A stretch of 64,000 nucleotides of DNA from Picrophilus oshimae DSM 9789 (GTDB lineage Archaea > Thermoplasmatota > Thermoplasmata > Thermoplasmatales > Thermoplasmataceae): contig NZ_FWYE01000001.1 in NCBI RefSeq assembly GCF_900176435.1, positions 248,001-312,000 of the forward strand, given 5' to 3'. The number at the start of each line of letters is the position of its first letter. Position 1 is the stretch's first letter. The notes beneath the pieces are model-generated. The model did not search any database and was not told the DNA's origin. It was given only the letters and a program-made list of their open reading frames with translations. The position numbers and the translations under genes were made by a program. Shown in pieces: positions 19,447 to 29,783 of the stretch.

Positions 19447-20079
19447 TTATAATTGAAGCTTTAATTTCTTTAACCTTGAGAGTATCTCATCCTCGGATAG
19501 ATAATAAAAGCCCTTTTTTGGATCTACAACGCCAAGCTGAAGCATGTTTCCAGAGGCGGAATCACGCTGCTTTGCGGCACTTATTGCCTTTATCACAAGG
19601 TTTATGCCATCATCTAATGACATGTTTTTCTGGTATTCTGCCTCAAGGACACCGTAGACAAATGGAGATCCTGATCCGGTGCTTGCATATATGTCCTCAA
19701 CTGAGCCACCGGCTGCGTCTATCGAGAATATATGTGGCTTTGTATCATAGCCCCCAACAAGGAGCTGAACCATGTAAGGATAGAACTTTGTCTGGTTTAG
19801 CATGTTTGATAGCAACGTTGCAGCCGCATCAATTGGCATGCTGACCTTTCTCTGAACGCGATACAGTTCCATTTCTGCCTTCATATACCTTACCAGTACC
19901 TGTGCATCACCGACAAGGCCTGCTATGGTCATTGCAGCGTAATTATCTATCTGATAAAGCTTCTGAGCGTTTTTATTTGATATGAAATTTTCCATTGTTG
20001 CCCTGCTGTCAGTTCCCATGATAACGTAATCCCCGGCTGTAATACCAACCGTTGTTGTACCTGTTTTTAATACCTCCAT
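19447..20079 (-). CDS. psmB: Proteasome beta subunit
   Basis: 210 residues, very close to the Thermoplasma acidophilum subunit in wording. A seven-residue propeptide (MEVLKTG) precedes the catalytic Thr (T8, TTTVGI), with the conserved [16 protein letters not shown] lysine region, [16 protein letters not shown], and [16 protein letters not shown]. It forms the inner rings of the 20S proteasome. Only beta is here; the alpha gene is elsewhere. A ttttataaaa box at about 20097-20108 sits some 24 bases upstream of the ATG. Confidence 0.97.
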
Positions 20080-20188: not shown

Positions 20189-23100
20189 TTATTTACCCTT
20201 TTTACCGCGTTCCACTGCAAATAATGCTATGAAGATCACTGCTATAACTGCCAGTATGCCCATTATTGCATAGTCTATTACTGGTGTAACATCCTTTGTA
20301 ACCTTCTGTGTAACTGTTACCTTCTTTGTTACTGTATGCGTTACAACGTAGGATGGAACCAGATAGAAGTGCTCTACTGTTGTTGGATCCGTTCCATTTT
20401 TGTACGTTATTGTTAATGTTACCTCTGTTACTATTGAAACGTTTGGCGCATTGTATGTTAATGAGTATGATCCAGATGATCCTGTGCTGGCCGATGTTAT
20501 CGATACTTTTCCTATGTTAACGCTAACATTGAATGGTACATCGGATGCATATGGACCTGCCATTGAGTCATATGTTGAATTTACGAACATTGTGTATGTG
20601 TTGTTTGCCGGTAAGATCTGAACACCGTTGTATATTGTTGAGCCCTGTATGTATGCATTTACCACCGGGTGGTTCAGTGGATGTAACGTTGAATTGTAAT
20701 GGAATTCATCTGCCCATACGTATGTCTGATTTACATAGTTTGCTCCCCAGACACCTATTTCGAATTCATCGAATGGTATTATATACTTTGACGTGTATGA
20801 CATGCCCTCAAATGAGGCCACGGAGCCATTTACCATAACCGGCTTGTATAATCCGGTAGATAGATTTGCCATTGCAACTCCGCTGGCATTCGTTGTTAAT
20901 GTTATCTCAGGCATTGATGTTGATCCGAAGTACTGGTTTGGATTGAATCCGTTGCCGAGTCCACCTATGAAGTATCCACGGTTTGCACCAAGTGCATTCT
21001 GTGCCGTTAATGTTACCTTGTATCCTGGTACAGGCTTTGAGCCGTTCATTACTGTTACCATTATTGTTGAAACTCCGTTGTACGAAGTAACCTGGTTCAT
21101 TACATTTACCTTTATGTTGTAATGATTTGTCTGGTTTGTTACCATTACTGGCATCTCGAATGGCTGGACAACACCAAAGCCGCTTGGATTAAATGACGAT
21201 GTTACCTCTCCGAGAACATCGTAAGGTGCCTCGCCTGATAATGGTGCTCCTGCGGCGTAATCTCCTATGAATATGTATTCTTCAGAGTATTCTCCGTTTA
21301 ATTTGAAGTTAAAGTCTGGATTTACCTTAAGCATCAATGTTATGTTTCCGGTGCTGTTTGTCACTCCTGATATCTCTGTTAGATTCGTTGACATTATTGG
21401 CGCACCTGTGCTGTTAAGGCCGACTATTACACCGTATGGCCATATAGATGTCACGTTCTTTACTATTTCATTGCCGTAGGCCTTTGCCATTATTGAGGCA
21501 TTTAGGACCTGTACAGTGTATGCATATCCCGATACCGGTTTATCCGTCATTGGATTTACTATTGTTATATTAAACATCCTGTAGCCAGTGCCATTTATTA
21601 ACTCGGGTAAATTCGATGTCTTGTATGCTATTGCATATGGCAGCACATCTATATCAGTGTAACCTATACCGCTTACAGCATTGGACATTGTTGCCGATGC
21701 AGATACGTTTATGGTTGATAAATAGTCATTTGTGTATATAAGATCATTCTGTGGAAGAACCTTGAATTCAAACCTGTACTGTCCAAGTGAGTTTGTTGTT
21801 CCACTGTACGATGTTATATTTAATAATGCACCCTGCGGGTTGTATCCTATAACAACATTTGCGCCTGATACTGGCTGGCCAAACTGGTTTCTTACCTGTA
21901 TCGTTATGTTTCCATACTGGCCATTCAAGAATATTCTGTGTGTATTAAATACAGAGACCTCAAGCTGCTGCTCAACCTTCTTTGGAACCTTTACGACCGG
22001 AACAACAACCCTCTTATGCAGTGAGAAGAAGTTCCAGTACCAGAAGCCACCTATACCAAGTGTATCCTTAACTATGCCTGTGTATGTTGCATTGTTTATT
22101 GGTATTAAATCAACGCCGTATCCAAGGTTTATCAATGTTGATTCGTTTGCACCTATGAACTGTATTGTATCGCCTATTTTTACTGACTGGGCCACACTAA
22201 CAGTTGAAAGCATTTTTGTTACAAGGTTATTCATCAGGTTTGTCATGTAAGTTGTGTTTCTCAATGATCCATTGTAATACATTGATGTAAACGGACCCAA
22301 ATAGAAACCGGTTCCTATGCCAGTTGTATCGTATGTATCCTCAAAGAAGCCAACAGGATTTGAAACTATTCCTGATATACCAAGTGATATAACATTAAAT
22401 GTATTCGGCGTGCTTGGTGTTAAACCAACAAGGTTTGATACCAGCGTTGTGAATGATTCCTGCTTGACGGTTGTCGGTATTCCTATTGAATCCCATGATT
22501 TTGCTATGACCTCTGCGCCTTCAACACCAAGTGGATCCTCACTTGCAACGGTTATCTGTATTGTTGCCGTTACAGGCTTTCCATGATAAAGCCAGTTACC
22601 TGCGCTATCCTTGCTAAATCCAGGTATCTTTGATATCATGTTATATGCCAGTGTTGGGTTATATGGATATGTTGGCACATTTGAATCATGGTAAAGTGCA
22701 TCTGATGTTGGCACAATTGATGCTCCGGGTGTTGCGTAACCCTCATCTATAACGCTTGCTATGTACTGTTTGTTTACTGCATAGTTTAATGCCTGCCTGA
22801 ACTGTGTTATATTATAAGGTGCATCAGCCTTGTACGAGTTTATCTGCATGTAGCCGTAACCGGTACCTGGCTTTTCATATATATATGTATTTGGTATTGT
22901 CTTTAACGTTGGCAAAAACGTTGGTGGTGGTGGTAACATTATTGAATAGATCTCACCCTTCGCCATTGCAGATACAGCCGGAGAATATGATGCAAAGTAG
23001 ATATCCTTTATTGAGTATATCTTAGGTGTGTACTGCTTTAATGATGAGTTGTACTGTACAAAGTAATGTGGATTTACATATAATTGCCAGTAATCACTTG

Positions 23101-24073
23101 GAAGCCAGACACCGTGTGGCATTCCATATCCGGCATACATCATGAATGGCCCGGATCCAACAAGTCCCGGTGCATAGCCGGTTGTCGGATTCCATCCAAG
23201 ATTCCAGGCATTATATGATTCCGAAGCGGGAAGATTCGGTGTGTAGTTCCAGAGACCTGGTGTTGATGCATAATCATGCTTTACCCATATATGATATGGC
23301 AATATCGGTGTTTCAAGTGTATCGAGTACAAATATACTGCTCTGTCCAGACATTAAGAATTCAACTGTTAGGTTATTAACAGGTATTATATTTACAACAT
23401 CATAGTACTCTCCGGAGTAATCCTGTGATTCATTTAATATTTCCCATGAAAGTATAAAGTCTGCAGCCTGAACATAGTATGTCTTCATTTTCATCGATTT
23501 GAATAATGTGTAGTTATGATATACCTTCTGACCTGTTTCTGGATTATAATAGTATGTGTGGTTTGAGAAGCAGTATGTGTCATTTGCATTCTGTGGTGTC
23601 CAGTCCTGCCACTGTACACCAGGTCTTATATGGACAGTCCATATGTATTTAACAGGCTCATTCTGAAGTGTAAATGGTGAGAATGCCGTCATGTTTGCAG
23701 GTGCCTTTGATTCTGACCATGATGTTGCAAGCCATGGTGATATTGATTCATTTGGCAGGAAGTTTGTGGCCGAATCATATATCTCATCAAGAAGCATGAA
23801 ATCACAAACCGTGCTTGCGTCCCAGATGTTTATATAGTTTATGTTTCCAATCTCTCCTATCTTATATGTACCATTTGTATATCCAGGTTCCTGCATTGTT
23901 GTGGTCGGATATGTATATGGTGCTGGACCTGCATTCTTTGCCACGGCTGGCGCTGATGTCTGCCCTGGAATTGCTGCTCCAAAACCCTCTGCAACAAATA
24001 TCAGGGAGACTATCAGAACCGCTGCTATTAACATATACTTTTTAAACTTTTTTCGATAGTCACTTTCTGACAT
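20189..24073 (-). CDS. Membrane-anchored oligopeptide-type ABC solute-binding protein with three Ig-like repeats
   Basis: 1294 residues. It has an N-terminal signal/anchor segment (residues about 12-33), a family 5 solute-binding domain in the first 700 residues (PYNPTLAYNMISKIPGF, FRQALNYAVNKQYIA), then a linker VPVVKVPKKVEQ, then three Ig-like modules each with a P-V-S/P-G turn and a TNS/A-x-G strand (QPVSGANV, KPVSGYAY, KPVPGYKV). It ends with a Val/Thr-rich stretch and a C-terminal transmembrane helix followed by GKKGK. It delivers oligopeptides to the DppB/C permease encoded upstream. Its ATG is about 27 bases from atatttaaat (24095-24104), so it also has its own promoter, fitting a need for excess binding protein. 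It is roughly twice the usual family length. Confidence 0.88.
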   Translation of the reverse strand: MSESDYRKKFKKYMLIAAVLIVSLIFVAEGFGAAIPGQTSAPAVAKNAGPAPYTYPTTTMQEPGYTNGTYKIGEIGNINYINIWDASTVCDFMLLDEIYDSATNFLPNESISPWLATSWSESKAPANMTAFSPFTLQNEPVKYIWTVHIRPGVQWQDWTPQNANDTYCFSNHTYYYNPETGQKVYHNYTLFKSMKMKTYYVQAADFILSWEILNESQDYSGEYYDVVNIIPVNNLTVEFLMSGQSSIFVLDTLETPILPYHIWVKHDYASTPGLWNYTPNLPASESYNAWNLGWNPTTGYAPGLVGSGPFMMYAGYGMPHGVWLPSDYWQLYVNPHYFVQYNSSLKQYTPKIYSIKDIYFASYSPAVSAMAKGEIYSIMLPPPPTFLPTLKTIPNTYIYEKPGTGYGYMQINSYKADAPYNITQFRQALNYAVNKQYIASVIDEGYATPGASIVPTSDALYHDSNVPTYPYNPTLAYNMISKIPGFSKDSAGNWLYHGKPVTATIQITVASEDPLGVEGAEVIAKSWDSIGIPTTVKQESFTTLVSNLVGLTPSTPNTFNVISLGISGIVSNPVGFFEDTYDTTGIGTGFYLGPFTSMYYNGSLRNTTYMTNLMNNLVTKMLSTVSVAQSVKIGDTIQFIGANESTLINLGYGVDLIPINNATYTGIVKDTLGIGGFWYWNFFSLHKRVVVPVVKVPKKVEQQLEVSVFNTHRIFLNGQYGNITIQVRNQFGQPVSGANVVIGYNPQGALLNITSYSGTTNSLGQYRFEFKVLPQNDLIYTNDYLSTINVSASATMSNAVSGIGYTDIDVLPYAIAYKTSNLPELINGTGYRMFNITIVNPMTDKPVSGYAYTVQVLNASIMAKAYGNEIVKNVTSIWPYGVIVGLNSTGAPIMSTNLTEISGVTNSTGNITLMLKVNPDFNFKLNGEYSEEYIFIGDYAAGAPLSGEAPYDVLGEVTSSFNPSGFGVVQPFEMPVMVTNQTNHYNIKVNVMNQVTSYNGVSTIMVTVMNGSKPVPGYKVTLTAQNALGANRGYFIGGLGNGFNPNQYFGSTSMPEITLTTNASGVAMANLSTGLYKPVMVNGSVASFEGMSYTSKYIIPFDEFEIGVWGANYVNQTYVWADEFHYNSTLHPLNHPVVNAYIQGSTIYNGVQILPANNTYTMFVNSTYDSMAGPYASDVPFNVSVNIGKVSITSASTGSSGSYSLTYNAPNVSIVTEVTLTITYKNGTDPTTVEHFYLVPSYVVTHTVTKKVTVTQKVTKDVTPVIDYAIMGILAVIAVIFIALFAVERGKKGK

Positions 24074-24161: not shown

Positions 24162-24503
24162 TTATAAAAAACTAATTAGAAATGCAAAAATTATATATAT
24201 TAGTCCAATACCTATATATATAAGTGTCATTATTAATTGCTGTTTATAAATATAGTTAAGATCACCTTCATTAAATGGCAGACCTGTTCTAAAAACGTCC
24301 TTTATATATGATTTTGCACCAAAGCTTGACCAGGCGCCGCCAAAGATTACTGTTATGCCCGCTATAAAAAGGATTACGGGCATGTAACTGAAGTATTCAA
24401 AATGATAAAAAAAGTAAAATGGCAGCGGTATAAGGATTAAAAATAATAATATAAATAGAGGTATTGCAGCGTATTTCAGCCTTGTTTTGTTTATTTCGTT
24501 CAT
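24162..24503 (-). CDS. Small membrane protein in the oligopeptide ABC operon
   Basis: 113 residues with three hydrophobic helices (about 12-33, 39-56 and 88-112) and a cytoplasmic or outer loop GAKSYIKDVFRTGLPFNEGDLNYIY. No family recognised. Its start overlaps the stop of the fused ATPase gene by four bases (ATGA), and it lies just before the solute-binding protein gene, so it is translated with the transporter. An accessory subunit of the ABC system is a plausible inference. Confidence 0.65.
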   Translation of the reverse strand: MNEINKTRLKYAAIPLFILLFLILIPLPFYFFYHFEYFSYMPVILFIAGITVIFGGAWSSFGAKSYIKDVFRTGLPFNEGDLNYIYKQQLIMTLIYIGIGLIYIIFAFLISFL

Positions 24504-26662
24504 CTTATCATTGGTGATATTATCATTTTTAGATCTCTCTGGCTCCAGTTAATCTTTGAATCAAGCTCCTCCGGCGAGAAATGGCACAGATACCAGTGAT
24601 CGCCTATCCTCTGGTATTCTGGTTTTTCATATTTGCATTTCACCTCACGGTACAAACATCTTTCATAGAAGCGGCAGCCCTTCGGAACATTGATTGCATT
24701 GCCTATCTCACCCATGATGCCGATGTTTCCTGGATTCCAGTCTGGTGTTGGTACAGGAACTGCCCTTATAAGTGCCCTTGTGTATGGATGCTCCGGATTG
24801 TTTATTATATCACTGGCCTTTCCATATTCAACGGCAACACCAAGGTACATAACCATTATGTAATCCGATAGATAATAAACAGATGCAATGTCGTGTGAAA
24901 TGTAAAGCACTGACAGATTTGTTTTGTTCCTTATCTCCTTTAAAAGATTCATGAATCCTGCCCTTAACGAGACATCCAGCATTGATGTTGGCTCATCTGC
25001 AACAAGGAATTTAACCCCGCCAAGAACCAGTGCGCGTGCCGTTGCAACCCTCTGCCTTTCACCGCCTGATAGTTCATGAGGATACCTTTCAAGGTAATTT
25101 TCCGGTGGCGTCAGTGATACCGTTTTCAATATATTTTTCACCATTTTGACCATTTCATCTGGATCCTTTGTTATCCTGTGCGCTATTATTGGTTCTGATA
25201 TAATATCAAAAACGGTCATCTTTGGATTTAATGAATCGTATGGGTCCTGGAAGATCATCTGGGTACTTCTTCTAAATAATGAATAATCATCTTTATTTTC
25301 AATCTTTGTTATATCTATCTTTTTATTATCGAAGATATATACTATATCACCGGCTGTTGGTTTTATTAAATCTATTATTGTCCTTGCAAACGTTGTTTTC
25401 CCTGAGCCGGATTCACCAACTATTCCAAGAATTTCGCCCTGTCTTATATTTATAGAGACATGATCAACCGCCCTGACAAATAGATCATTTCTTGAGAACA
25501 GCTTGCCTGATAATGATTTTTTCAATGAGAAGTATGTAACAAGGTCATTTACATTTAATACGTCTTCCCCGAATTTAATATTGTTTTCATAATCTTCATT
25601 TATATTTGATTCGTGCTTTTTCAATTCGTTTGCAAAGAAACACCTGCTGTAATGCACATCATCAATTGTTACAATGGGTGGCTCTGATTGACCGCACACA
25701 TCACTGCTGTATGGGCAGCGTTCATAGAAGCGGCAGCCCTTCGGAACATTGATTGGATCCGGAAGGCTTCCGGGTATTCCATGAACCGTTTTCCTTGCAT
25801 TTTTAATGCTTGGGTAGCTCCTCAAAAGCTCTATTGAATATGGATTCCTCGAATTTATGTATATATCACGTGCGGTACCGTACTCCATTATTTTTCCTGC
25901 ATAAAGAACGGCAACGTGGTCTGCAAGCTGGGATATAACACCAATATCATGTGATATTATTATTAAATTTTTTATTTTTCCCTCGCTCTTTAGTTTTTTT
26001 AACTGGCTTATAATTTCTGCCTGTGTTATAACGTCAAGACCTGTTGTTGGCTCATCGGCTATCACTATATCTGGGTTCAATGCAAGTGCCATGGCTATAA
26101 CCGCACGCTGCTTCATTCCACCTGATAATTCATGTGGATATGCCTTCAGAACAGCAGGATTTAAACCTGCATATTTTATTGTCTCAACAACTCTTTTATC
26201 TATCTCATCATCGCTAAGATCTGTATGTATTTTGTAAACCTCCTTGATCTGCTTTTCTATTGTATAAACAGGATTGAAAGAGTTCATTGCGCCCTGGAAG
26301 ACCATTGATATATTCTTCCAGCGCATGTTTCTTAGGTTTATACTAAGCATTTTTATCTGCGATCTTGATAGTTTTTTCCTTGGTGGGTTTACAGTTGTAG
26401 AATTTATGTACTCATTGCCCCTAAATGATATGCTACCACTAACATGTGCATTTGATGGTAATAAGCCCATTATGGCAGTTGCCAGGGTGCTCTTACCTGA
26501 GCCGGATTCACCAAGTATGCCAAGGCTCTCACCCTCAACAAGCTCTATGTTTATATCATCAAGTGCATGAACCGTGCCGTCATAGGTATCAAAATTAACA
26601 GAGAAGTTTTTAATGCTTAGTATTGATTCCCCATTTTGCTTTTCTTTTTCTATTTCGATCAT
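24500..26662 (-). CDS. Fused oligopeptide ABC ATPase (DppD-DppF)
   Basis: 720 residues with two complete nucleotide-binding domains. First half: Walker A GESGSGKSTLA, signature LSGGMKQR, Walker B IVIADEPTTGLD, H-loop IISHD. Second half: GESGSGKTTFA, LSGGERQR, FLVADEPTSMLD, YISHD. Each half ends with the oligopeptide-family C-terminal extension carrying NVPKGCRFYERC, a cysteine motif that in some members binds an iron-sulfur cluster. In bacteria DppD and DppF are separate proteins; here the heterodimer is one chain. It energises the DppB/DppC channel from the cytoplasmic side. It overlaps dppC by four bases. The DNA for NVPKGCRFYER is identical over 35 bases in the two halves. Confidence 0.95.
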   Translation of the reverse strand: MIEIEKEKQNGESILSIKNFSVNFDTYDGTVHALDDINIELVEGESLGILGESGSGKSTLATAIMGLLPSNAHVSGSISFRGNEYINSTTVNPPRKKLSRSQIKMLSINLRNMRWKNISMVFQGAMNSFNPVYTIEKQIKEVYKIHTDLSDDEIDKRVVETIKYAGLNPAVLKAYPHELSGGMKQRAVIAMALALNPDIVIADEPTTGLDVITQAEIISQLKKLKSEGKIKNLIIISHDIGVISQLADHVAVLYAGKIMEYGTARDIYINSRNPYSIELLRSYPSIKNARKTVHGIPGSLPDPINVPKGCRFYERCPYSSDVCGQSEPPIVTIDDVHYSRCFFANELKKHESNINEDYENNIKFGEDVLNVNDLVTYFSLKKSLSGKLFSRNDLFVRAVDHVSINIRQGEILGIVGESGSGKTTFARTIIDLIKPTAGDIVYIFDNKKIDITKIENKDDYSLFRRSTQMIFQDPYDSLNPKMTVFDIISEPIIAHRITKDPDEMVKMVKNILKTVSLTPPENYLERYPHELSGGERQRVATARALVLGGVKFLVADEPTSMLDVSLRAGFMNLLKEIRNKTNLSVLYISHDIASVYYLSDYIMVMYLGVAVEYGKASDIINNPEHPYTRALIRAVPVPTPDWNPGNIGIMGEIGNAINVPKGCRFYERCLYREVKCKYEKPEYQRIGDHWYLCHFSPEELDSKINWSQRDLKMIISPMIR
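24662..24696. repeat. 35-base direct repeat, copy 1 (inside fused ATPase gene)
   Basis: This stretch begins ttcatagaagcggcagccct and is identical over 35 bases to 25721-25755. It encodes the C-terminal Cys motif NVPKGCRFYER of the second ATPase half. Confidence 0.85.
25721..25755. repeat. 35-base direct repeat, copy 2 (inside fused ATPase gene)
   Basis: Identical to 24662-24696 over 35 bases, while the surrounding DNA of the two halves has diverged freely. It encodes the same motif in the first ATPase half. Recombination between copies would delete about 1059 bases in frame (353 codons). Confidence 0.85.
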
Positions 26663-28806
26663 CTTCTACCACCGACCCTGGGATTAACAACCTCATCAAG
26701 ACCCCTGGCTATAAATATAAATGCCATTATAAAAAGCGTAATTGCAACTATTGGTGGTATAAACCACCATGGCGCTATGGCAAGATCAAAGAAATCTGAG
26801 TAGAAACCGCTTAGCATTCCACCCCATGTTGGAACCGTTAAAGGTGCAAGTCCAAGGATCTCCAGTGTTGAAACTGAGCCAACAGCACCGCCGATGTTTA
26901 TTGCTGTTATATAAACGAGCAGCGGACCCATGTTGGGAAACATATGCCTTCTTAATATCTGCATTGTGCTTGCACCTGAAACCTTTGCTGCATCAACAAA
27001 CGTCCTTGATTTTATACCACGGACAACACCTATCAATGTAAAAGTTGCAAATTCCCATCCAAGGAATGTAAGTATTAATATAATGTTTGGAATGCTTGGG
27101 CCAAGAATCTTTGCCATTACTATAAGAAATGGCAGCCCTGGTATAAGGTATATTGCAAGTGTTATTGTTTCTATGACCGCACTCACCATTCCTGAGAAAT
27201 AGCCTATAAACATTGATATTATTGCGGCTATTATTAATATTGCTATGCCAACAACGAAGCCAACCTCAAGATCTATTGGAAAGCTTCCGATGAATAATGA
27301 CCAGACATCATTGCCCTCTGAGTTTGTTCCCAGCGGGAATGAATTGCCTGATAAAGTATGAAATGTTGGCGGTAATGGATTTATATCCTTACCTGCAGTT
27401 GAATATAAATAGAAATTCGATGATGATACAAAGGCTATTGATTCACCTGCTGTCTTTGAATTAAGCAGGAACTCAGGATTGGATATCTTTTCCTTTAGAT
27501 CAAGGCCCCAGCCAAATGGATCCTTGCTTGATAAATACTCCATGTAAACAAAGTCACCGGTTGAGTTATCATATAATAGAAATGTGCTTGAACCATAATC
27601 AGGAACTATTCCACTTATATAAAATGGTGATGCCACGGTTCTTTGAATTCTTCCAGGACCTGATAGAAGATATATGTTCTTTGATGTTGTGACCACAAAG
27701 GTCGATGGAAATCCTGATTCTCCGGCCGTTGATGAAACTCCCGTGATTTTAGAATTGCCCTTAAATACACTGCCTAATGTGAAATTCACAAGATTTAATG
27801 AGTAAACGCTGTTATTGCCATAGAAGAATAATGAATTATATTTATTAAGGCCTTCATTGTAGGCTAAAGGGATGTACATTCCTGAAACATTAACAGGAAC
27901 TGTTTTATTATAGATTTCCGTGCCGTTAACACTGTAAAACATGATTCTGTTACCTGATGATATTATAATACCACCATCATTGTATGCATTTGAATTGCCA
28001 AGAAGTGAGCCATAGTATATGAAATGTGGATTATTTAGGTTATTAATTGGTTTTGACCATACCATTGAACCTGTTAGCGTGTACTCATTTAAATGATATG
28101 TTCCATTATTGTTTACTGTAAATATATATGCAGGATTGCATATTTCATTGAAATTTGGAATTCCTGAATAGCTCTCGTGATATGACATTGCGCTTGTTGT
28201 TGAGTATATTATATTCTTTTCGTGTATTGTTGAAACCGATGCGCTTGGTGTTCCTGAGCCGTAGCTTGATCCTGACCAGTTTATCTTTGCTATGTAAACA
28301 TCATTGTTTGTATAAACAAGTAAATATGTATTTAATGATAGAACACCGGCTATTGCATATTTATTATAATCCCCAACGGTGAATGCCCTTAGGCCCAGCG
28401 GCGCCGATGAGATGTTAAAAAGTTTGTATTCCCTGCCATTGTTAACCGAGAGGCCGTATAGAGCATACGATGTTCCGGTATGGCCAGCACCAAAAACCAG
28501 ATAGCTGCCCTCTGGTGTTGATGATGTTGCTGTTAATTTCATCAATGAGCCTGATACCTCCGGATTAAAAGAGAGATGCGATGTTAACTGATTTGACGCA
28601 ACATAAAAATCCTCAGGAGGAGCTATGTATGTAACAGGGTCGCTATGCTGTATTATCAATGGAGATAGTACAGTTATAACTATGAATCCAACAAGTATAT
28701 AAAATCCAACCCTGCCGTATACAGATTTATAAAAAATATTCCACTGTTTTTTAAACTGCGCAATCCTGAACTTTAACCTCTTTTTTCTGTAACTTTCCTC
28801 GGCCAT
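26659..28806 (-). CDS. dppC: DppC-type ABC permease with a large propeller-like extracytoplasmic insert
   Basis: 715 residues from ATG 28806 (preceded by AAAGGTGTAATT; an in-frame ATG at 28836 would overlap dppB). Residues 33-53 are TM1. Residues about 60-64 (YIAPP) begin the usual loop, which is interrupted by about 420 extracytoplasmic residues and resumes at about 477 with PLPPTFHTLSG and the family motif PLGTNSEGNDVW (491-502). Then come five helices and a normal coupling loop (FVDAAKVSGASTMQILRRHMFPN). The insert consists of repeated short beta-strand blocks such as YLVFGAG, YLLVYTNNDVYIAKI, and IIISSGNRIMFYSVNG, resembling a beta-propeller. Ordinary DppC proteins are about 290 residues. 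The insert may bind substrate or the binding protein outside the cell (inference). Confidence 0.88.
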   Translation of the reverse strand: MAEESYRKKRLKFRIAQFKKQWNIFYKSVYGRVGFYILVGFIVITVLSPLIIQHSDPVTYIAPPEDFYVASNQLTSHLSFNPEVSGSLMKLTATSSTPEGSYLVFGAGHTGTSYALYGLSVNNGREYKLFNISSAPLGLRAFTVGDYNKYAIAGVLSLNTYLLVYTNNDVYIAKINWSGSSYGSGTPSASVSTIHEKNIIYSTTSAMSYHESYSGIPNFNEICNPAYIFTVNNNGTYHLNEYTLTGSMVWSKPINNLNNPHFIYYGSLLGNSNAYNDGGIIISSGNRIMFYSVNGTEIYNKTVPVNVSGMYIPLAYNEGLNKYNSLFFYGNNSVYSLNLVNFTLGSVFKGNSKITGVSSTAGESGFPSTFVVTTSKNIYLLSGPGRIQRTVASPFYISGIVPDYGSSTFLLYDNSTGDFVYMEYLSSKDPFGWGLDLKEKISNPEFLLNSKTAGESIAFVSSSNFYLYSTAGKDINPLPPTFHTLSGNSFPLGTNSEGNDVWSLFIGSFPIDLEVGFVVGIAILIIAAIISMFIGYFSGMVSAVIETITLAIYLIPGLPFLIVMAKILGPSIPNIILILTFLGWEFATFTLIGVVRGIKSRTFVDAAKVSGASTMQILRRHMFPNMGPLLVYITAINIGGAVGSVSTLEILGLAPLTVPTWGGMLSGFYSDFFDLAIAPWWFIPPIVAITLFIMAFIFIARGLDEVVNPRVGGRR

Positions 28807-28808
28807 AA

Positions 28809-29783
28809 TTACACCTTTATTCTTGGATCTATCCATGCATGTATAAAATCAACAAGAGAGTAGGCAAGTATAACAACTAATGTTATAACAAATAATGCTC
28901 CCTGGGCCACGGTTATATTATCCTTTATTGCCGCATCATAGAGCAATGTGCCCATCCCAGGCAGCGTAAATATAACCTCAACTATGACTGCACCGCTCAT
29001 AAGAAACGCAAATTCAAGGGCCATTCTGGTTGATATTGGTACCATGGCATTTCTTGCAGCATGATGGAACATTATATCTCCTTCCTTGACGCCCTTGGCG
29101 CGGGCCGTTGTTATGAAATCCTCTCCAAGAACAGAAACCATGGCAGCCCTTGTCGTTAATAAATGGCCCATGATCTCTATTACCGCAAGCACGGTAATAG
29201 GCATAACAAGATGATAAAAGGCATTGCTAAGACCTGCAAGTGTTGGATGCGTTATATCTGTTATCGGGAAAACCGCCCTTAATGGAAAGATGTGATAATA
29301 ACCTGCAAAGTAAACAAAGACCAGTATTGCAAGAACAAAGAACGGTATTGAGTTAAGGATCGTTGCTGTTGTTATTAGGCCCGTCTCTGATTTTTTGCCC
29401 CTTAAGAAGGATGTTGCTATGCCGGCAGGTATGCCTATGATAAATGATATAACTGCTGCTATACCGAACAGTAATAATGTGTATGGAAGTGCAGATTCAA
29501 CCTCAAGTGCAACTGATTCCTGGCTGTAAACAGATTTGCCAAAGTGAAATGTTAACATATCGCCAAGATATATCAAAAAATCATGGAAATTGATAGGACC
29601 GGCCAGTGGACCTAACTCCGCCTCAATAATTTTTAACTCACCTGGTGATGGATGCTTTAATCCATGCAGAAGTATTAATGCAGGGTTACCAATGGCCCTG
29701 AATAGCACGTAAAGAACCACCAGGACGAACAGAACTAATGATATATCCTGTATTATCTTCCTTATGATAAGGTACGTATTCAT
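28809..29783 (-). CDS. dppB: DppB-type oligopeptide ABC permease
   Basis: 324-residue canonical DppB: N-terminal helix, LGPLAGPINFHDFLIYLGDMLTFHFGKSVYS, five further helices, and the coupling loop EDFITTARAKGVKEGDIMFHHAARN with the invariant glycine. It forms the membrane channel with DppC. First gene of the operon dppB, dppC, dppDF, small membrane protein, binding protein. A ggtatattaat box at about 29806-29816 lies roughly 26 bases from the ATG. Confidence 0.95.
   Translation of the reverse strand: MNTYLIIRKIIQDISLVLFVLVVLYVLFRAIGNPALILLHGLKHPSPGELKIIEAELGPLAGPINFHDFLIYLGDMLTFHFGKSVYSQESVALEVESALPYTLLLFGIAAVISFIIGIPAGIATSFLRGKKSETGLITTATILNSIPFFVLAILVFVYFAGYYHIFPLRAVFPITDITHPTLAGLSNAFYHLVMPITVLAVIEIMGHLLTTRAAMVSVLGEDFITTARAKGVKEGDIMFHHAARNAMVPISTRMALEFAFLMSGAVIVEVIFTLPGMGTLLYDAAIKDNITVAQGALFVITLVVILAYSLVDFIHAWIDPRIKV

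Follow-up and report, generated by a model that had tools for sequence, protein, structure and literature searches.

Within the 64,000-nucleotide stretch of Picrophilus oshimae DSM 9789 analysed here (the window), a DppC-type permease carries an extra domain in the outer loop between its first two TM helices, which is very probably a PQQ/WD40-like beta-propeller of about seven blades, a blade count that is itself uncertain. We propose, with a probability of roughly 0.55, that this propeller may act as a fixed docking platform that keeps on the channel a giant binding protein, which is encoded in the same operon and tethered by a stalk. The propeller-bearing DppC importer is a widespread yet seemingly undescribed version of a familiar peptide importer.

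The permease gene (26659..28836, minus strand) encodes 725 residues when read from the first ATG of its open reading frame at 28836, and 715 residues from an alternative ATG at 28806. Its Pfam BPD_transp_1 (PF00528) match covers residues 539-721 (5.5e-15, above the cut-off), and residues 63-298 of E. coli DppC (8z1v_B) align to residues 484-721 in a phmmer search (E 4.7e-23). Because this alignment starts where it does, the insert can be placed in the TM1-TM2 loop, right before the PLGT-type segment. Hydropathy assigns TM1 to residues 44-62 (28651..28707, minus strand) and all other TM helices to positions past residue 520. A weak OppC_N match spans residues 28-65 and scores 13.8 bits, below the cut-off of 23.9; this family matches 21 of 22 DppC homologues at E<=1, several of them above the cut-off. 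The channel core (residues 487-725, 26662..27378, minus strand), which comprises the TM2-TM6 region and is delimited by phmmer matches to solved DppC/OppC structures, contains the EAA coupling loop TFVDAAKVSGASTMQILRRHMFPN (residues 612-635, 26932..27003, minus strand), located between TM4 and TM5 and both present and conserved in the DppC alignment as TFVDAAKVSGAS...PN. The preliminary description had placed an insert of about 420 residues between the motifs YIAPP and PLPPT of an otherwise normal permease, and this proved accurate: in the 725-residue numbering the motifs occupy residues 70-74 and 487-491, about 413 extra residues (74-486; 27379..28617, minus strand) precede a normal PLPPT...PLGT segment, and the channel core aligns to E. 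coli DppC with its EAA loop intact. By its channel, operon and ATPase features the protein is thus a predicted subunit of an Opp/Dpp-type ABC importer with a putative role in peptide transport.

Dozens of genomes from this archaeal class encode DppC homologues with the insert, 707-889 residues long. Homologues of matching architecture span the order and the class, complete single-contig genomes included, and the insert is kept at the identical point in 22 orthologues, far above chance. In the window genome itself, the other two DppC paralogues have the usual length (314 and 313 residues). An assembly or annotation artefact that fuses two genes, which the preliminary description had named as a possible undoing of its claim, was looked for in the genomes of relatives and has a negligible probability, since homologues of the same length and the same continuous architecture are found in many unrelated assemblies, complete single-contig genomes among them. 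One related assembly, that of I-plasma, does carry a DppC gene broken by a frameshift in the public sequence (L003 7896-10182 and L042 9073-11362), of which L002 holds an intact close relative. A scan of viral contigs found no relatives.

The fold assignment draws on structure prediction and on sequence profiles, and as low-confidence models can mislead, the sequence tests weigh more. AF2 modelling of the insert from only four usable sequences gave a mean pLDDT of 48.6 and a pTM of 0.52; the middle section came out with higher confidence (10-residue blocks reaching 84), and the strands followed a recurring pattern. The full-length protein scored lower still, with a mean pLDDT of 40.1. At these values the number of blades and their orientation are unreliable. 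When the insert model was compared with the PDB by Foldseek, the best 50 matches were overwhelmingly beta-propellers, as they were for the full-length model; the matches of the two low-confidence models include BamB, Sqt1, RACK1/Asc1 and the designed Cake proteins at a probability of 1.00. A profile built from 18 inserts matches the designed propeller v31Bagel8 across successive blades (E 8.5e-4), a second profile from eight inserts of the sister group matches BamB (E 0.03), and hhalign joins the two profiles to one another with a probability of 90.5 (E 1.4e-6). The window DppC sequence on its own has no Pfam match inside the insert, and inserts of its relatives match Beta-prop_ACSF4 (6.1e-7) and PQQ_2 (4.6e-5) with scores under the curated cut-offs. 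The propeller-like character of the segment, already proposed in the preliminary description, is supported by fold search, profile searches and Pfam, and the segment is not of a disordered type, the prediction yielding regular four-stranded units. In blade motif and fold matches the domain resembles PQQ/WD40-like propellers such as BamB and the designed Bagel and Cake proteins; it differs from them in being embedded in a permease loop, away from any enzyme or BAM context. Most of the DppC inserts contain no or one cysteine.

Topology and composition together indicate that the insert is extracellular, and a location on the outside of the cell is strongly supported by these predictions. The insert follows TM1, the N-terminal side of which is rich in lysine and arginine, and its charge is low (5% KR, 6% DE) with 40% STNQY, like the ectodomain of the operon's binding protein and unlike the ATPase or the TM core. 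Its N-glycosylation sequons number nine against 8.4 expected, i.e. they are not enriched, and glycosylation density consequently offers no evidence for the insert, unlike for the stalk of the binding protein. The preliminary description had also suggested that the domain helps to hold on to peptides at very low pH; in a broader form, the domain would keep either the peptides or the complex stable under these conditions. Many carriers belong to acidophile lineages, as judged by inference, and the low charge of the insert would fit such a role, but the binding protein shares this low charge, which is hence not specific to the propeller. The idea is highly improbable and lost its footing because the other DppC proteins of the same acidophile cells, presumably exposed to the same external pH and including both paralogues of the window genome, are of the ordinary kind that lacks the domain. 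Several whole genomes of the acidophile family (e.g. G024) likewise have no match to the propeller profile.

The permease is part of a tight operon that encodes DppB, DppC, a fused DppD-DppF ATPase, a 113-residue protein with three TM helices and a family-5 binding protein of 1294 residues; this five-gene arrangement is kept in about 20 genomes, and DppD and DppF are encoded separately in a sister set. DppB (28809..29783, minus strand) is of normal size, with 324 residues, six TM helices by hydropathy and a BPD_transp_1 match of 4.3e-33. The ATG of the fused ATPase (24500..26662, minus strand) overlaps the stop codon of DppC by 4 nt, and its 720 residues comprise, according to Pfam, two ABC_tran and two oligo_HPY domains together with two four-cysteine sets. 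The protein has exactly eight cysteines, arranged as CRFYERCPYSSDVC...C and CRFYERCLYREVKC...C, and the two sets match the four-cysteine sites at which DppD and DppF of E. coli are reported to hold [4Fe-4S] clusters. The small 3-TM protein (24162..24503, minus strand), recognised by hydropathy and operon conservation as a conserved partner of fused-ATPase operons, has no Pfam or NCBIfam match; across these operons it spans 113-147 residues, is encoded by their last gene and looks like an unrecognised accessory subunit. The binding protein (20189..24073, minus strand) contains an SBP_bac_5 domain at residues 111-586 (Pfam, 3.3e-40), an Ig-like extension with weak Big_1/CarboxypepD_reg matches at residues 710-771, and a C-terminal TM helix at 1269-1287 according to hydropathy. 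Its C-terminal stalk (residues 700-1260; 20294..21976, minus strand) holds 23 N-x-S/T sequons against 9.9 expected, a count reached in 0 of 1000 shuffles. A gene that resembles a 20S proteasome beta subunit by eye lies directly downstream of the binding-protein gene (19447-20079, minus strand).

The proposed function draws on the pairing of the propeller with this binding protein. About 70 Dpp regions were retrieved, and the lengths of DppC and of the adjacent binding protein were measured. In 34 operons with a propeller-bearing DppC the binding protein has 866-1685 residues (median 1485), against 563-664 residues (median 607) in 14 operons with an ordinary DppC, with zero overlap between the two sets. 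The pairing also holds within single genomes; that of the window combines a binding protein of 1294 residues with the 725-residue DppC and one of 598 residues with the DppC of 314 residues. The lone apparent exception, a DppC of 278 residues next to a binding protein of 1327, stems from the I-plasma gene that a frameshift has broken and represents the C-terminal half of its product. Since a C-terminal TM helix anchors most of the ordinary binding proteins as well, what is new about the propeller-linked ones is their long extension. Within the propeller operons the lengths of DppC and binding protein are uncorrelated (rho 0.10, p 0.56, n = 34), so that the coupling is one of presence and absence and not of length matching; a propeller that serves as a spacer sized to the stalk is thereby ruled out. 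Because the operons are related by descent, the p value of a rank test is not independent evidence, and the all-or-none pairing could reflect one ancestral event that has been inherited together.

According to the docking model, the propeller on the outer TM1-TM2 loop would clamp the giant stalk-tethered binding protein of its own operon onto the channel, at a site next to the normal docking site on DppB, and would thereby allow peptides to be handed over efficiently, with selectivity for the cognate binding protein. Canonical docking probably remains in place, since DppB keeps its normal size. That the propeller physically touches the binding protein, and that it serves in docking, is inferred from the pairing and from precedents in known importers. 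The binding protein of the E. coli DppABCDF importer sits as a cap over DppB and DppC, and its cleft holds a scoop motif of DppB (PMC12136057). In a model of the pneumococcal Ami system the TM1-TM2 loop of AmiD, which corresponds in position to the insert, touches the binding protein at lobe 2, and the enlarged AmiC ectodomains clamp this protein (PMC11192437), and the P2 domain of MalF contacts MalE (PMC3150292). The preliminary description had envisaged a head for either substrate binding or docking; the docking half is now the best-supported reading of its function, because the insert is coupled in all operons compared to an enlarged tethered binding protein and the AmiD-counterpart loop is modelled as touching the binding protein, whereas the substrate-binding half has found no specific support.

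The comparison with these systems delineates what is shared and what is not. The E. coli DppABCDF and M. tuberculosis DppABCD importers have in common with the present one the DppB/DppC channel, the EAA loop, a family-5 binding protein and the four-cysteine DppD/DppF ATPases (PMC12136057); they differ from it in that here DppC carries the propeller of about 413 residues, DppD and DppF are fused, the 1294-residue binding protein is membrane-tethered and stalked, and an additional 113-residue 3-TM protein is encoded. The Ami system resembles it in that one subunit of an oligopeptide permease bears large domains outside the cell, which in the model clamp the binding protein or offer it a platform (PMC11192437). 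However, both ectodomains of Ami reside in AmiC (498 residues, domains within 31-278), and the 308-residue AmiD has just a coil at the counterpart loop (PMC11192437), whereas here a propeller is carried by the DppC-side subunit. MalF-P2, too, is a folded domain that is inserted into a type I permease on the extracytoplasmic side and makes contact with the binding protein, but it has about 180 residues (91-271), is no propeller, and belongs to a different loop and a different substrate (PMC3150292). The new element is a domain at a known permissive loop of the Opp/Dpp importer.

Two other roles for the propeller were weighed against docking. It might be a scaffold for assembly or cell-surface organisation that holds the stalk of the binding protein, a surface glycoprotein or neighbouring transporters, with no direct part in each transport cycle. 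The coupling does track the presence of the long C-terminal extension, and the stalk is Ig-like and rich in sequons, both of which fit a scaffold; yet the binding proteins range from 866 to 1685 residues without a matching change in propeller size, and ordinary binding proteins tethered by a C-terminal TM helix work without a propeller, which makes this role rather unlikely. Alternatively, the propeller might handle substrate at a second site, as a chamber over the channel mouth that binds peptides or sieves them by size and acts before or after the binding protein. Propellers often bind peptides, and prolyl oligopeptidase and tricorn, with their gating propellers, offer an analogy for such a chamber. 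The insert is also positioned at the outer face of the channel, and Ferroplasma acidiphilum is a peptide-feeding organism with many peptide transporters and secreted thermopsins (PMC5473848). Against this stand the lack of conserved charged residues of the ligand type, the strongly conserved insert positions being mostly glycine, proline or aromatic, the fact that no peptidase-gating propeller stood out among the Foldseek matches, and the retention of a binding protein in all cases; we regard such a site as improbable. The same low expectation applies to a more far-reaching reading, in which channel propeller and stalked tethered binding protein would define a distinct subclass of type I importers, a permanent extracellular peptide-receiving machine whose propeller binds or size-selects peptides ahead of their entry into the channel.

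In a maximum-likelihood tree of the permease core (75 rows), a branch with 99/91 support separates all the enlarged DppC proteins, namely the fused-ATPase type, the split-ATPase type and the type of 611-618 residues, from all the ordinary paralogues. The tree is unrooted and is consistent with one ancient gain in the class followed by loss or transfer. Within the fused type the insert evolves faster than the core, with 22-35% against 46-77% identity to the window protein, and the motifs IPxxYQ, GFPS and PFxW persist despite this divergence. This degree of conservation speaks against docking, since one might expect an obligate interface to be kept more strictly.

Our searches of open-access text found no description of a propeller in an ABC permease. 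Some proteobacterial PstC proteins reach about 700 residues because of a large insert on the periplasmic side, which may be a propeller; three plasmid-borne PstC proteins (336-459 residues) inspected as a possible precedent have no such insert. For these protein-feeding archaea the import of peptides is a central process, and most of what is known about the mechanism of ABC importers comes from bacteria. A channel that bears a propeller and is paired with an enlarged tethered binding protein constitutes a natural and testable case of the evolution of receptor docking in type I importers, and the pairing may explain how wall-less archaea hold receptor and channel together. Enlargement is not confined to DppC: in some operons of the sister group (L048, L067, L068 and L069) DppB is enlarged too, with 467-580 residues beside a DppC of 800-825 residues, and a third class combines a DppC of 611-618 residues (L076 8363-10195, L077 7965-9818 and L090 9347-11188) with a DppB of 527-535 residues.
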